A DNA stretch of 64,000 nt from Halorubrum alkaliphilum (lineage in GTDB: Archaea; Halobacteriota; Halobacteria; Halobacteriales; Haloferacaceae): positions 1-64,000 of the forward strand of contig NZ_JAGGKQ010000003.1 in NCBI RefSeq assembly GCF_017873815.1, written 5' to 3'. The position numbers and the translations under genes are program-made. The notes below the pieces were generated by a model, which made no database searches, had not been told where the DNA came from, and saw only the letters and a list, made by a program, of their open reading frames with translations. Below are positions 16,326 through 38,988 of this stretch, one piece after another (position 1 is the stretch's first letter; each line of letters begins with the position of its first letter).

Positions 16326-18287
16326 TCACTCCTCACCTCGGACCGTCGACTCAATCTCCCCGACGACCTCGGGGTTTCGGAGGGCACTGACGTCGCCGAA
16401 CTCCTCGCCGCGGGCGATGTCCTCCAGCAGACGGCGCATGATCTTCCCGGAGCGCGTCTTCGGGAGGTCGGGCGTGAACACGACCCGATCGGGACGGGCG
16501 ACCTCCCCGACCGCGTCGGCGACGTGGCTTTCGACCGACTCGCGGAGCGTCGAGTCGGGGTTGACGTTGCCCTGCGTCGTCACGTATGCGACGACACCGC
16601 CAGAGTCGTCGCCGACGACCGCAGCCTCGGTGACTCCGTCGACGGCGACGATGGCCGACTCCAACTCCGCGGTGTTGAACCGGTGGGCACGAACGTTGAT
16701 CACGTCGTCGACGCGGCCGAGGATCGTGACGTAGCCGTCCTCGTCGACGGTCGCGCCGTCGCCGGTGCGGTACCGCCACCCTTCGTCGGTCTCGACCCAG
16801 TACTCGCGCCGGTAGCGCTCCGCGCCCTCGCGAAGTCCACGAAGCATCCCCGGCCACGGCCGGTCTATCGTGAGGTAGCCGGTCTCGCCCGGATCGACCG
16901 GGTCACCGTCGCGGTCGACGACCTGCGCCTCGATACCCGGAAGCGGCGGGCCGACCTTTCCGGGTTTCATCGGCGTCACGCCGGGCAGCGTCGCCACAGC
17001 TATCGCGCCCGTCTCCGTTTGCCACCACGTGTCGACGACCGGCGCGGTCCCGCCGCCGACGTGCTCGCGGTACCAGTGCCACGCCTTCGGCGTGATCGAC
17101 TCCCCGACCGTCCCGAGCAGTCGGATCGAGGAGAGGTCGTGGGCGTCGGGGTACTCAGCGCCCCACTTCATGAACGAGCGGATCGCGGTCGGGGACGTGT
17201 AGAAGACGCTGACGGCGTTGCGCTCGATCAGGTCCCACACGCGCTCGCGGTCGGGATAGTCGGGCGAGCCCTCGTAGATCAGGGAGGTCGTTCCCAGCGC
17301 GAGTGGGCCGTACACCCCGTAGGAGTGACCGGTGATCCAGCCGATGTCGGCGGCACACCAGTAGGTGTCGTCCGGCCGGACGTCGAGCACGTTCTTGGTC
17401 GTCCACGCGACGTGTGAGAGGTAGCCGCCCGTAGCGTGTTCGACGCCTTTCGGTCGCCCGGTCGTCCCCGAGGTGTACATCACGAACAGCAGGTCGGTGG
17501 CGTCGCGCGCGACGGGCTCGACGGTCTCGCCGTCGTGGGGCGCGAGCAGCGCTTCGTAGTCGTGTTCGTCCTCGCCGAGCGCGATCTCAAGTGCGTCGCC
17601 GAGGCGGTCCACGACGACGGTCGCCGCCAACTCGCCGTCGATCCGGAGGGCCGCGTTGTCGGCACGCGACTTCTGGTTGAACGCGTCCTCGCGGCGGTAG
17701 TAGCCGTCACAGGTGACGAGGTACTCGGAGTCGGCGGCGTCGATCCGGGTCGCGAGTGCCTCCGCCGACAGCCCCGCGAAGACGACGTTGTGGGGCGCGC
17801 CGATGCGAGCACACGCGAGCATCGTCACCGGAAGTTCCGGGATCATCGGGAGATACAGGGTGACGACGTCGTCCTCCTCGACGCCGAGTTCGCGGAGGCC
17901 CGCCGCGGCCGCGTTCACCTCCCGATGGAGGTCCGCGTAAGTGTACGAGCGACGCTCGCCGCGCTTGCCGAACCACCGGATCGCGAGCTGGTTCCGGCGC
18001 TCGTCGAGGTGGCGGTCGACGCAGTTGACGGACGCGTTGAGCCGGCCGTCCGGGAACCACTCATAAAAGGGGGGGTTCGAGTCGTCGAGCACGGTGTCGG
18101 GCTCGCGCGCCCAGTCGAGGAGGTCGGCGGCGCGGCCCCACGCGTCGGGCCAGTCGCGCTCGAACGCCTCGTACACGTCGGGATCGACGACGGCGGCCGA
18201 CTCGCGGAACGACTCCGGCGGATCGGTGGCGTTCCCATCGCTCGAAACCGCCACTGCGTGCCGGCCGTCAGTCCCGGCCTCGTCCAT
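16326..18287 (-). CDS. acsA: acetyl-CoA synthetase, AMP-forming (copy 2)
   Basis: A 653-residue paralogue of the enzyme at 12268-14259 with the same ordered motifs: YTSGTTGRPKGV, WWQTETGA, DVINVRAHRFNT and TRSGKIMRRLL. The hinge SGHRLG of copy 1 has become RAHRFN, and several acyl-pocket neighbours differ, so the acyl preference (acetate, propionate or another short acid) may differ. Full length, no truncation. A good TATA box (AAAGTATAC) lies 26-34 bases before the ATG, giving a nearly leaderless transcript of its own. The Bat-type regulator gene follows 129 bases downstream. Confidence 0.95.
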   Translation of the reverse strand: MDEAGTDGRHAVAVSSDGNATDPPESFRESAAVVDPDVYEAFERDWPDAWGRAADLLDWAREPDTVLDDSNPPFYEWFPDGRLNASVNCVDRHLDERRNQLAIRWFGKRGERRSYTYADLHREVNAAAAGLRELGVEEDDVVTLYLPMIPELPVTMLACARIGAPHNVVFAGLSAEALATRIDAADSEYLVTCDGYYRREDAFNQKSRADNAALRIDGELAATVVVDRLGDALEIALGEDEHDYEALLAPHDGETVEPVARDATDLLFVMYTSGTTGRPKGVEHATGGYLSHVAWTTKNVLDVRPDDTYWCAADIGWITGHSYGVYGPLALGTTSLIYEGSPDYPDRERVWDLIERNAVSVFYTSPTAIRSFMKWGAEYPDAHDLSSIRLLGTVGESITPKAWHWYREHVGGGTAPVVDTWWQTETGAIAVATLPGVTPMKPGKVGPPLPGIEAQVVDRDGDPVDPGETGYLTIDRPWPGMLRGLREGAERYRREYWVETDEGWRYRTGDGATVDEDGYVTILGRVDDVINVRAHRFNTAELESAIVAVDGVTEAAVVGDDSGGVVAYVTTQGNVNPDSTLRESVESHVADAVGEVARPDRVVFTPDLPKTRSGKIMRRLLEDIARGEEFGDVSALRNPEVVGEIESTVRGEE

Positions 18288-20485: not shown

Positions 20486-22030
20486 TTACTCTTCCGGGTC
20501 CTCGCCGCGTGCTCGCTTGTACATCGCCAGCGCGTCCTCGCGACGCTCCGAGTGGTCGACGATCGGCGCGGGGTACTCCGGGGCGGCGTTTGCGCGCTGA
20601 GTCGGCGACAGCTCGTGCCACTCGTGGATCAGGTCCGCGTCCACCTCGCGAAGCTCCGGGACGTACCGCTTGATGTACTCCGCATCTGGGTCGTAGCGTT
20701 CCCCCTGTGTCATCGGGTTGAAGATGCGGAAGTACGGCTGGGCGTCCGTCCCGGTCGAGGCGGCCCACTGCCAGCCGCCGTTGTCGTTGGCGGTGTCGTG
20801 GTCCGCGAGTCGCTCGCGGAAGTGCTCGTAGCCGTGTCGCCAGTCGGCGAGCAGGTCCTTCGTCAGGAAGGAGGCGACGATCATCCGCACGCGGTTGTGC
20901 ATGAACGCCTCCTCGCGAAGCTGGCGCATCCCGGCGTCGACGATCGGGTAGCCCGTCTCGCCGCGTTTCCACGCCCCGATCTCCTCGGGGTCATCACGCC
21001 AGTCGATCCCCTCCTCGTACTCCTTGTAGTTGTCCGTGACGACCGAGGGGTTGTGGTACAACACCTGCGTGTAGAACTCGCGCCACGCGAGCTGCTGTTG
21101 GAACGCCTCGACGTGGTCCGTGGCGTCCCCGTGGTCCGTGGCGTCCCCGTGGTCCGTGGCGTCCCCGTCGTCCGTGTCGTCCCCGTCGTCTCCGGTGTTC
21201 GCCTCGGAGCGGTCCTCGGCGTCGGCCAGCGCCGTCTCGGTCGCCTCGTACGCCTCTCGGATCCCAATCTCGCCGTACTTCATGAACGTCGAAATCCGCG
21301 ACGTTCCCTTCCGTGCGGGGTAGTCGCGCTCGTCGTCGTAGGTGAAGACGCCGGACGAGAGGAACGCGTCGAGCCGCTCGCGGGCGGCCGCCGTCCCCGC
21401 CGGGCCCACGTCCGCGTCCGGCTCGGAGAATCCGAGGTCGGCCGGCGTCGGGAGGTCCCCGACGGCGACATCGAGGTCGACGCCGTCGAGTCCGGACTTC
21501 TCGGCGGTCCGAATCCCGTCGGCATCGACGAGGTCCGCCTCGGTCGGAGTCGGTGCCGGCGGGTCCGTGTCCCGGTCGGTCCACTTCCTCCAGTAGTAGG
21601 TGTATACGGAGTAGGGGTCGCCGGCGTTCGTCCGTATCGAATCGGGCGTGTGTAACACGGCGTCGTGGTGTGCTTCGCGTCGGACGGCGGCGTCGTGAAG
21701 GGCCTGTCGAACGCCGGCGTCGCGCTCACGGGCGAGCCCGGAGTAATCGCGGTTCCAGACGACTCGTTCGGCGTCGAGCTCGTCGGCCAACTCCGGGAGC
21801 ACCGCCGCCGGGTCGCCGTGAGCCACGAGGAGGTCGCTTCCGCGGTCGCGGTAGGCGCCCCGTAGCGCCGCCAGTCCGTCGAGCAGTCGACGCACGCGGA
21901 CGTCGCTCGCGTGGTCGAGCACGTCCGGGTCGAACACGAACACCGGCGCGACCGCGTCGCGGTCGGCGGCCGCTGCGAGTCCGACGTTGTCGTCGATCCG
22001 GAGGTCCCGTCGGTGCCAGAACAGCTCCAT
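20486..22030 (-). CDS. phr: deoxyribodipyrimidine photolyase
   Basis: A 514-residue cryptochrome/photolyase-family protein. It starts MELFWHRRDLRIDDNVGL (antenna-cofactor domain) and contains RKGTSRISTFMKYGEIGIRE, QQLAWREFYTQVLYHNP, DAGMRQLREEAFMHNRVRMIVASFLTKDLL and GGWQWAASTGTDAQPYFRIFNP, which together form the FAD pocket and the lesion-binding surface of class I CPD photolyases. It repairs UV-induced cyclobutane dimers with blue light. An acidic insertion of about 35 residues before the QQLAWREF helix carries tandem GDATDH repeats (21113-21184). The insertion sits in a loop and the FAD motifs are intact, so the enzyme should be functional. Confidence 0.95.
   Translation of the reverse strand: MELFWHRRDLRIDDNVGLAAAADRDAVAPVFVFDPDVLDHASDVRVRRLLDGLAALRGAYRDRGSDLLVAHGDPAAVLPELADELDAERVVWNRDYSGLARERDAGVRQALHDAAVRREAHHDAVLHTPDSIRTNAGDPYSVYTYYWRKWTDRDTDPPAPTPTEADLVDADGIRTAEKSGLDGVDLDVAVGDLPTPADLGFSEPDADVGPAGTAAARERLDAFLSSGVFTYDDERDYPARKGTSRISTFMKYGEIGIREAYEATETALADAEDRSEANTGDDGDDTDDGDATDHGDATDHGDATDHVEAFQQQLAWREFYTQVLYHNPSVVTDNYKEYEEGIDWRDDPEEIGAWKRGETGYPIVDAGMRQLREEAFMHNRVRMIVASFLTKDLLADWRHGYEHFRERLADHDTANDNGGWQWAASTGTDAQPYFRIFNPMTQGERYDPDAEYIKRYVPELREVDADLIHEWHELSPTQRANAAPEYPAPIVDHSERREDALAMYKRARGEDPEE
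21113..21184 (-). repeat. 18-bp tandem repeat inside photolyase
   Basis: GTGGTCCGTGGCGTCCCC is repeated perfectly at 21113, 21131 and 21149, followed by a degenerate fourth copy to 21184. On the coding strand it specifies repeated Gly-Asp-Ala-Thr-Asp-His units. Unit length is a multiple of three, so the frame is kept whatever the copy number. Confidence 0.9.
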
Positions 22031-24283: not shown

Positions 24284-26068
24284 TCACTCCTTGGTGACGA
24301 ACTCGAAGCGAGCCCCGCCCGACTCGCTTTCGCCCACCGAAACGCTCCAGCCGTGTGCGTCCGCGATTCCCTTGACGATCGCGAGGCCGAACCCCGTCCC
24401 GTCCTCGCGGGTCGTGAATCCCGTCTCGAACACCGCGTCCGGGTCATCTAACGCGATCCCCGGCCCGTCGTCCGCCACGTAAAACCCGCCATCGGCCATC
24501 CCGACACGCACTCGAAGGCCGTCGGACTTCGTCCGACTGCTCGTGGAATGGTTCGAAAACTCCGCGGAGTTTTCGTCATCACGAGAGACGGCGTCGCCGT
24601 CTCTCGAACGACCGTGTTCCACGCTGTCGCCGGGCTCCGCCCGGCTGCTAGTCGAGCCGTGCTCGACACTGTCGTCGGACTTCGTCCGACTGCTCGTGGA
24701 ACCGTGTTCCACACTGTTTCGAAACAGGTTCTCGATGAGCTGTTGTAGCCGGGTCGGGTCAGCATGGACGGTTCCGTCGTCCTCGACCGAGAGGGTCGCG
24801 TCGCCGGTTTCCACGGTCGTCCATGTCTCCTCGGCGACCGTACGGAGCGAGACCGGCTCCGGGTCGACGTCGCTCGCGCCCCGTTTGGCGAGCGCGAGGA
24901 CATCGTCGATCAGCTCCGCCATCCGATCGTGAGCGTTCTCGACCGCCTCGAACTGTTCGGCAGCGTCGTCGCCGACGTTGGCACACGCTGCGCGTGCCAG
25001 TTCGAGACGACCTTGTGCGACGTTCATCGGGTTTCTGAGGTCGTGACTGACGATGCTGGCGAACTCTTCGAGACGCTCGTTCTGGCGTTCGAGCTCCTCG
25101 GTACGTCGGCGGAGCTGACGCTCGACATCGAGTTGTGTGAGCCGGGCACGAGTGTGTGCGGCGAGGAGTTCGACAGCACGCAGATCGTGTTCGTCGAACG
25201 CACCGACCGCCTTCGAGGCGGACTGGAACAGCCCGATGTCGCCGATCGGAACGGTCAACAGCGACCGGAACTCTGAGTCGGCCGGCGCGGCCTCGTGCTC
25301 ACGGAGGTCGTCGATGACGCTGGAGTCCCCGGTTCGATACGCCTCGGCCGCGACGTTGTCCTCGGCGTCGATCGGCGTCTCCTCGTAGTACCCCTCGCCG
25401 CCGAGGTTCGACGAGATCGCTTTCGGAACGAGTACGCCGTCGACCGCGGCGTCGACGAGCGCGAAATCGAAACGGAGGATCCGCTCGACCGCCCGGATCA
25501 CCGTGTCGTACACCTCATCCGGAGTAGTACACTCACCTAGATCCGTCGCAACGCCGTGAAGGGCCTCGATCTCTCGTTTCCGCTCGCGGAGCCGGCGTTC
25601 AATCCCTCGACGGTCCGGGGGCCGACGACAGACACAGACGAGAACGGGATCCCCGCCGATCGCTCCCTCACGAACGGATATCACGACGGACGCCTCGTGC
25701 CCGTCCGCATGGACGAGCGGGACGTCAGCACCGCCCCGACGGGATCCGGTCTCCTCCGTCCCGGCGTCAGTCCCGCCGTTCCCCTCGATCGATTCGACGC
25801 CGGTTCCGTCCGGCCCGAGATACGAACGGATGTCGTCGGACCGATCGTCGTGGAATCGGTCGGGTATCAGTTCCGTTCCCGGCCGGCCGATCAGATCGTC
25901 GGGAGAATACCCGAGGAGCCGTTCCGTTGCCGGGTTCGCATACGATATCACCCCGGTCCGGTCGAGGGCAATGATCGCCTCCGGGGCGTTCTCCAACACC
26001 CCGCGATCGAACCCGTCGTCGCTGGACGCGGACGCCGACCCGATCCGCTCACCTCCGGTCTCATCCAT
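24284..26068 (-). CDS. PAS/GAF sensor histidine kinase with repeat cassette
   Basis: About 594 residues. Order: PAS domain (ENAPEAIIALDRTGVISYANPATERLLGYS, residues about 20-130), a linker, GAF domain (about 190-320), coiled coil, the HisKA H-box IVSHDLRNPMNVAQGRLE, then HATPase_c with N-box QLIENLFRNSVEHG, G1 box VADDGPGI and GTGFGLAIVKGI. Between the N-box and the G1 box an extra stretch of about fifty residues repeats the N-box tail (SVEHGSTSSR) and coincides with five perfect DNA palindromes (24521-24690). No membrane segment, so it is cytoplasmic. No response regulator is adjacent. ATG at 26068 is chosen; 26113 adds fifteen poorly supported residues. Confidence 0.9.
   Translation of the reverse strand: MDETGGERIGSASASSDDGFDRGVLENAPEAIIALDRTGVISYANPATERLLGYSPDDLIGRPGTELIPDRFHDDRSDDIRSYLGPDGTGVESIEGNGGTDAGTEETGSRRGGADVPLVHADGHEASVVISVREGAIGGDPVLVCVCRRPPDRRGIERRLRERKREIEALHGVATDLGECTTPDEVYDTVIRAVERILRFDFALVDAAVDGVLVPKAISSNLGGEGYYEETPIDAEDNVAAEAYRTGDSSVIDDLREHEAAPADSEFRSLLTVPIGDIGLFQSASKAVGAFDEHDLRAVELLAAHTRARLTQLDVERQLRRRTEELERQNERLEEFASIVSHDLRNPMNVAQGRLELARAACANVGDDAAEQFEAVENAHDRMAELIDDVLALAKRGASDVDPEPVSLRTVAEETWTTVETGDATLSVEDDGTVHADPTRLQQLIENLFRNSVEHGSTSSRTKSDDSVEHGSTSSRAEPGDSVEHGRSRDGDAVSRDDENSAEFSNHSTSSRTKSDGLRVRVGMADGGFYVADDGPGIALDDPDAVFETGFTTREDGTGFGLAIVKGIADAHGWSVSVGESESGGARFEFVTKE
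24521..24690 (-). repeat. in-frame palindrome array inside the kinase gene
   Basis: Five perfect palindromes: GTCGGACTTCGTCCGAC at 24521-24537 and again at 24674-24690, GAAAACTCCGCGGAGTTTTC at 24555-24574, a 25-base one at 24582-24606 (stem CGAGAGACGGCG), and GCCGGGCTCCGCCCGGC at 24629-24645. They are separated by partial copies of the adjoining coding sequence (TGCTCGTGGAACCGTGTTCC-like). The frame is kept throughout and the array encodes SVEHGSTSSR-type units with T-K-S-D, A-E-P-G-D and E-N-S-A-E-F inserts. Confidence 0.9.
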
Positions 26069-26148
26069 CGGTTTCGACTCCCAATTTACGCCATATATTC
26101 GCTCCACGTACATGAATCTGGCCCGTCGATCGGGACGAGCACGGCCGA

Positions 26149-38374: not shown

Positions 38375-38988
38375 CTGACGAAGGGGAGGACGGCCCCAGC
38401 GTCGCAGCCCGCGACGACCTCGCCGGCGTGGTCGACCTGTTCGGCTCGCTCACCCGGGCGGAGCTGTCCCGGGCGCTCTCGGAGCTGGCTTTTAAACAAC
38501 GAACCGAGATCGACGAGGACGCCATCGCGGCGGCGATAGACCTCGCGGTCGCGGAGTACGCGATCGTTCCAGCCCCGGAAGCGGCGGTGTCGGCGGCGGA
38601 CAGCGCGGGCGGCGGTGACTGCGCGGACGGCGCGGGCGGCGGTGACTGCGCGGACGGCGCGGGCGGCGGTGACTGCGCGGACGGCGCAGGTGACGATCCG
38701 GACGCCGAGCCGACCTTCCTCGCGGTTGGCCCGGCCGCGTTCCCGTCCCTTCCGGCTGGGGCCGAGGACCTACCACACATCCTCGACGTGCCGGATCGGG
38801 CGGTCGACCGGGAGGCCCTGTCGAGCGCGGTGCTCGATCGGCTCTCCGACGACGCGGTCGCCGCCATCGAGTCGGGTGACGCGGATCGCCTCGCGGTTCT
38901 CGCGGACGTGACCTACGATATCGAGGCGTGGGCCCCCGTCGACGCGGGGCCGATCCGAGAGCGAATTGTCGCCGAACTCGACGAGTAG
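38371..38988 (+). CDS. unknown acidic protein with Cys-containing tandem repeats
   Basis: A 205-residue protein I cannot assign to a characterised family; the layout resembles small haloarchaeal proteins encoded after glycosyltransferases (DUF7109-type). The N-terminal 60 residues are helical (VVDLFGSLTRAELSRALSELAFKQ), the C-terminal 80 are helical as well (AVDREALSSAVLDRLSDDAVAAIESGDADRLAVLADVTYDIEAW), and between them three identical nine-residue units AGGGDCADG (38604-38684) bring one Cys each. The ATGA overlap with the glycosyltransferase shows translational coupling. The repeat may be a flexible linker. Confidence 0.7.
   Translation: MTDEGEDGPSVAARDDLAGVVDLFGSLTRAELSRALSELAFKQRTEIDEDAIAAAIDLAVAEYAIVPAPEAAVSAADSAGGGDCADGAGGGDCADGAGGGDCADGAGDDPDAEPTFLAVGPAAFPSLPAGAEDLPHILDVPDRAVDREALSSAVLDRLSDDAVAAIESGDADRLAVLADVTYDIEAWAPVDAGPIRERIVAELDE
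38604..38684 (+). repeat. 27-bp tandem repeat, three perfect copies
   Basis: GCG-GGC-GGC-GGT-GAC-TGC is the start of each unit; units begin at 38604, 38631 and 38658 and are identical, encoding AGGGDCADG. Perfect identity suggests recent expansion. Confidence 0.9.

Follow-up and report, generated by a model that had tools for sequence, protein, structure and literature searches.

In-frame arrays of small palindromic DNA repeats in the loop behind the N-box of haloarchaeal histidine kinases

In Haloquadratum walsbyi, SMR-A and SMR-B are described as short non-coding mobile repeats of 80-110 bp with inverted ends and no target duplication, and SMR-A is recorded there as inserting inside palindromes of PATEs/IS605-type elements (PMC3119063). 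The term 'histidine kinase' does not occur in this paper on PATE/SMR classes. Rickettsia palindromic elements, as cited in PMC3733652, are palindromic repeats found in frame in protein genes and tolerated as extra peptide, and REPs are short palindromes tied to tyrosine (Y1) transposases that are sometimes coding (PMC3733652). Perfect inverted repeats are also present within functional coding genes of Nematomorpha mitochondria, where arms of up to 284 bp code conserved regions (PMC6649704). Template switching in yeast homogenises arms, flips spacers (tcc/gga and ttc/gaa among them) and brings amino-acid changes (PMC8604942), and such switching can maintain RNA stems generally (PMC8794818). A literature search on the kinase insert analysed here returned nothing.

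The insert lies in a 64-kb window (the whole stretch of DNA analysed, from Halorubrum alkaliphilum), where it spans 24521-24711 inside a minus-strand histidine kinase gene (24284-26113) with the Pfam domains PAS, GAF, HisKA and HATPase_c. The frame is open over 609 aa, so the reading frame is preserved, as the first-pass annotation had held. The linker from the N-box (NLFRNSVEHG) to the G1 box (DDGPG) is 92 residues long against 36 in the other kinase of the window, and the 56 extra residues agree with the earlier estimate of about fifty. That annotation had also reported five perfect palindromes within 24521-24690; all five inverted repeats are there, at 24521-24537, 24554-24575, 24582-24606, 24629-24645 and 24674-24690, and strictly they are hairpins with spacers of 0-3 nt.

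The insert consists of two layers, namely a tandem unit, 45 nt long and comprising two 17-nt hairpins (A and B), and a 63-nt two-hairpin element (R), and its order on the coding (minus) strand is A1, B1, A2, B2, a third A split by R, and B3. Hairpin A1 (24696-24712, GTGGAAC-ACG-GTTCCAC) codes VEHGST and is the first N-box copy; A2 (24651-24667, GTCGAGC-ACG-GCTCGAC) also codes VEHGST and is two compensated synonymous pairs apart from A1. Hairpin B1 (24674-24690, GTCGGAC-GAA-GTCCGAC on the coding strand) codes (S)RTKSD and has the same sequence as B3 (24521-24537); both are GTCGGACTTCGTCCGAC, with 7-bp arms and a 3-nt spacer, and hence a hairpin and not a strict palindrome. B2 (24629-24645, GCCGGGC-GGA-GCCCGGC) is likewise of the 7-3-7 form and codes (S)RAEPG. 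Alignment of filled and empty sites identified the third A as a 5' part (GTGGAACACGG, 24612-24622) and, past R, a 3' arm (TTCCAC, 24543-24548). Element R (24549-24611) codes the RSRDGDAVSRDDENSAEFSNH stretch and has one hairpin of 25 nt about a 1-nt centre (24582-24606) and one of 22 nt without a spacer (24554-24575). The stretch 24612-24701 is taken up by two 45-nt tandem units, each of one A and one B hairpin. The first-pass annotation had noted partial N-box copies alternating with the palindromes; what it had missed is that the copies are themselves 7-3-7 hairpins (A1 and A2), with a third split by insertion. The insert, which lies between the helix of the N-box and the strand that follows, is predicted to be disordered (pLDDT below 50, modelled from a 14-sequence alignment). 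A search of 59 related genomes gave no close full-length orthologue of this PAS-GAF kinase (best match 47% identity), which precluded a strict orthologue series.

The array is not explained by chance. Perfect inverted repeats with arms of at least 11 nt were found at no other place in the 64-kb window, and single-strand folding of the insert gave z = -7.3 (DNA) and -8.3 (RNA). Across 149 long linkers, we counted 370 hairpins of the 7-3-7 type, a density of 11.0 per kb, whereas the flanks of the same genes held 16 (0.34 per kb); the linker density describes repeat-carrying kinases rather than all kinases, the linkers having mostly been fetched through similarity to repeat-bearing peptides. Synonymous resampling of these linkers gave a mean of 28 hairpins and a maximum of 41, compared with the 370 real ones. 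Hairpins with a 3-nt loop were also enriched in a 464-kb genome sample (50 vs 16 in simulated sequence for arms of at least 8). Searching the window with Rfam returned two tRNAs only, and the array was without a match. Two other repeats were seen in the window: an in-frame 18-nt tandem repeat (DATDHG) in a photolyase-like gene (21112-21190, minus strand) and a 27-nt tandem repeat of about 4 copies with 95% matches (38581-38687).

The cassette is common to two divergent kinases of one genome, the second being at C2:53.5 kb. Identity between the two is 94-98% in the cassette and 64-68% in the flanks. Exchange between the paralogues is well supported, and recombination probably moved the cassette, with unequal crossing-over or gene conversion as the simplest route. 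The paralogue carries the 63-nt R at GTGGAACACGG^TTCCACGAGC, where A1 of the window kinase is unbroken, and in the latter gene R interrupts the third A hairpin instead, so that the two genes form an R-filled/R-empty pair at one A. In the window kinase, R adds 21 codons within a pre-existing hairpin A; it was identified from this exact 63-nt presence or absence between the paralogues and from its dispersed relatives.

R-like copies with up to 3 mismatches were detected in 7 of the 52 genus genomes, and those with a recovered linker were all in kinases. The strict R pattern matched in 59 of 392 genomes and 37 of 95 genera (0 matches in the control), with ten copies in one genome. The genome of H. 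alkaliphilum itself holds an R-like element in an IS200 tnpA frame at C14:36755, carrying an in-frame TGA. The corresponding tnpA site is empty in Halorubrum salinarum (L366) and filled by 54 nt in Haloferax larsenii and two Natrinema (L363-L365), all from plasmid records. In several genomes, R-like elements were also present in other repeated sequences, at two insertion sites that are each filled or empty depending on the copy. On the H. larsenii plasmid pHl5678-1 (L363:493-945), the 54-nt R-like element is in frame inside an IS200/IS605 tnpA. The stop codon seen in other copies is changed to CGA in this gene, which stays open and is annotated as TnpA of 150 aa, with a Y1_Tnp match spanning nearly the whole model.

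With a length of 54-66 nt, R is too short to code a transposase; some copies have the ends TCGTTCGA/TCGAACGA. No target duplication was evident when empty and filled sites were compared in tnpA and in the two kinases. Since R occurs within hairpin A in kinases, within the tnpA reading frame and within other repeats, in many genera and with empty and filled sites, its behaviour is that of a small mobile repeat. It is a mini-element of two hairpins, dispersed and precisely inserted, and for it the capture in frame of a small mobile palindromic repeat is well supported. The first-pass proposal that hairpins were captured in frame beside duplicated N-box codons is borne out by this dispersal and by relatives of hairpin B in intergenic repeats.

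A close relative of hairpin B, GGCAGCCGGACGTAGTCCGGCGACTGC (flanks included), gave 14 pattern matches in the same genome (control, 0), and species-specific variants of it are present in other genomes. Two B relatives that were read closely (L186, L043) lie between genes in composite repeats rich in triloop hairpins, and the kinase B hairpin was probably captured from such intergenic repeats, judging from sequence similarity. The composite repeats, several hundred bases long and apparently intergenic, contain many different triloop hairpins and have the conserved flanks CCTCCCCAGCCTCG and CCCCTTTGAGTCC. They were located at L186:9600-10200, L177:4141-4560 and 16981-17220, L170:10300-10600, L181:12690-13000, L172:1530-1790 and L175:600-780; there were 8 copies in the 464-kb genome sample, and Rfam had no match in those of L186 or L177. 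The idea that the exact palindromes are widely dispersed elements was rejected: within its own genome exact GTCGGACTTCGTCCGAC is confined to the two kinases. One near-match of GTCGGACTTCGTCCGAC is an intergenic hairpin B relative (C7:98267) and the others look like chance. GAAAACTCCGCGGAGTTTTC was also discarded as a dispersed sequence, its near-matches in other genomes coming for the most part from a single recurring GAAAACTCCGCGGAGATTTG-type site that has nothing to do with kinases; the copy in the same genome adjoins an apparent tRNA repeat.

Matches to the repeat peptides were obtained in 48 of the 52 genus genomes at an E-value limit of 1, at which some matches are weak, and at an E-value of 0.001 the A/B repeat peptides were matched in 162 of 293 genomes and 49 of 87 genera of the order. 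The recovered matches sit at the same kinase position as the insert of the window. Kinases without an insert also exist, for example in Halorussus, with the linker NAVEHGGETVVV. Instead of one cassette repeated throughout, unit number (one to five), order and type vary even among kinases with similar flanks, and R is found elsewhere; the outcome that the first-pass annotation had named as refuting, an identical cassette in all orthologues with palindromes confined to it, was therefore not obtained. A second B type, SPxSQxxED, was observed in kinases of other genera (L206, L215, L255, L258, L270 and others); its hairpins have covarying 6-bp arms and a conserved 10-nt loop, TCGCANRCTC, unlike the variable triloops of type 1. 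The kinase linker of genome G011 (L019, minus strand, from 2340) is enlarged by a duplicated DDVAIAVGALGGGANGG stretch and not by hairpin units, so this loop also lengthens in other ways.

To compare the arms, 174 linkers in 109 flank clusters were set against permutation. The first bases of codons X1 and X2 were Watson-Crick partners at a frequency of 0.92 (permuted 0.33, maximum 0.45), as were the Ser wobble base and its Asp/Gly partner at 0.94 (0.51), the V3-S3 pair at 0.86 (0.44) and the E3-G3 pair at 0.83 (0.49); clustering by flanks lowers relatedness and leaves some, and whole-unit exchange could inflate these counts. The values were unchanged with one unit per flank cluster, and two-sided arm changes were also seen within clusters. 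Two of the pairs change amino acids: at X1-X2, T goes with S, A with P and P with A, and at the other Asp or Gly appears in line with an AGT or AGC Ser codon. Each of the four main A stems is perfect in 22-43 clusters, and 17 distinct B stems are perfect. The arms remain complementary while their sequence drifts, including where this forces amino-acid changes.

The pattern search for R yielded 72 distinct copies, coding or not, with 19 two-sided and 20 one-sided arm changes, the limit of 3 mismatches in the pattern restricting what changes could be detected. Their loops are GNA or its complement TNC in 117 of 144 cases, nearly balanced at 64 vs 53. Between genomes, loops on like stems occur in inverse pairs (GGA/TCC, GAA/TTC and GCA/TGC), the events being unpolarised. 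C-GNA-G triloops form unusually stable DNA mini-hairpins. On the coding strand of the kinases, GNA loops are commoner than TNC, so that effects of the peptide or of the strand are also at work.

Could ordinary tandem duplication and exchange between paralogues of a few old hairpin types, with neither ongoing hairpin-specific mutation nor a mobile element, have produced the array? The 45-nt tandem period, the cassette common to two paralogues and the recurrence of the same stems in many clusters would fit. Tandem duplication does contribute, whereas the first-pass annotation had set the array apart from ordinary tandem slippage on the ground that the palindromes differ in sequence; the differences between units are largely paired two-arm changes and not unrelated hairpins. 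The presence of R in unrelated genes and sites of many genera speaks against duplication as the whole account, the 17 perfect B stems and the paired changes in R copies require a process that makes perfect arms, and inverse loop pairs are left unexplained. We consider this explanation unlikely, if the best placed of the alternatives.

Somewhat less probable still is selection on RNA folding, under which the hairpins would serve the kinase mRNA as a regulatory or structural element. The strong RNA folding (z -8.3), the arm covariation and the 10-nt loop conserved among type-2 hairpins would all be expected of such an element. However, broken pairs on the coding strand comprise 44 G-T vs 66 A-C and thus no G-U excess, a comparison that is a weak test alone owing to codon bias, and paired changes and loop inversions of the same kind appear in the R copies with coding ignored, at nearly balanced GNA and TNC. 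The variation from one to five units, the related kinases without an array and the lack of an Rfam match also weigh against it. A DNA-level cause is preferred over the mRNA because there is no G-U excess and because R copies show the same arm behaviour regardless of coding; the mRNA alternative put forward in the first-pass annotation is weakened to this extent. That VEHGST-SSRxxxD repeats were selected as peptide for protein function, with palindromes as a by-product of codon use, is improbable: VEHGST hardly varies (232 of 274 units) and the array is in frame in every linker used, but synonymous resampling destroys the hairpins (28 vs 370), wobble bases covary, amino acids change in pairs that preserve base pairing, and the loop is predicted to be disordered.

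We therefore favour, with a probability of roughly 0.6, an in-frame array of small palindromic DNA repeats in the loop behind the N-box, built by mobile capture, recombination between paralogues and template switching in hairpins. In such a process, R would insert precisely and in frame into a pre-existing hairpin A, B hairpins would be captured from intergenic repeats, and the cassette would spread between paralogues by unequal crossing-over or gene conversion. The arms would stay matched through DNA template switching in the hairpins, which homogenises arms and inverts spacers, and/or because mobility requires intact hairpins, and not through selection on peptide or mRNA. Maintenance of the arms by template switching appears the best reading of covariation and loop inversion together; a point against it is the 10-nt loop conserved in type-2 hairpins, which would be unexpected under neutral template switching. 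The loop may tolerate insertions since it is predicted to be disordered and exposed, and a putative TnpA of the IS200/IS605 type, working on hairpins in single-stranded DNA, is a plausible candidate for the mobilisation. What writes this part of the protein seems to be a process at the DNA level and not the function of the protein. The wider claim, that across the order hairpin copying and not protein selection dictates the amino acids of the kinase loop, with a change in one arm copied to its partner and hairpins seeded by a tiny mobile element, is one we hold at even odds. The evidence is comparative, from one genome per species, and arm, loop and insertion events are deduced by comparing genomes and paralogues.

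The hairpin array would account for the odd VEHGSTSSR repeats of haloarchaeal kinases. The linkers amount to hundreds of natural replicates in genetically tractable archaea, a readable record of hairpin-templated mutation in which non-synonymous arm covariation separates DNA-level causes from peptide selection. They also carry a warning, since coding DNA without any RNA function can acquire covariation, which is usually taken as proof of RNA structure.

Compared with the known systems, R resembles SMRs (PMC3119063) in being short and without target duplication, and its sites inside a palindrome and in an IS200/IS605 gene recall those of SMR-A; it differs in its length, in being almost wholly two hairpins and in being read in frame in the host gene. 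R works like an SMR and is not filed as one, because it measures 54-66 nt against about 80-110 bp; the comparison with the HqIRS families is by description. REPs have GTAG/CGTC tags and a RAYT partner, and the likeness here is of short, partly coding palindromes beside a Y1 transposase link. The paired arm changes and the inverted spacers on unchanged arms are like those of template switching, although, unlike the yeast cases, these are many-hairpin arrays over an archaeal order with events deduced from comparison. As in Nematomorpha, perfect inverted repeats are kept in coding DNA, but the kinase arms are 7-12 bp and lie in a variable loop, with mobile relatives. Like the Rickettsia palindromic elements, R is in frame in unrelated protein genes (kinases and one TnpA); unlike those bacterial elements, compared by description, the arrays occupy one loop of one gene family order-wide, as tandem triloop hairpins with amino-acid covariation. 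Coding palindromes (Rickettsia, worm mitochondria) and template switching (yeast) were thus already known, and here they are combined in one place.
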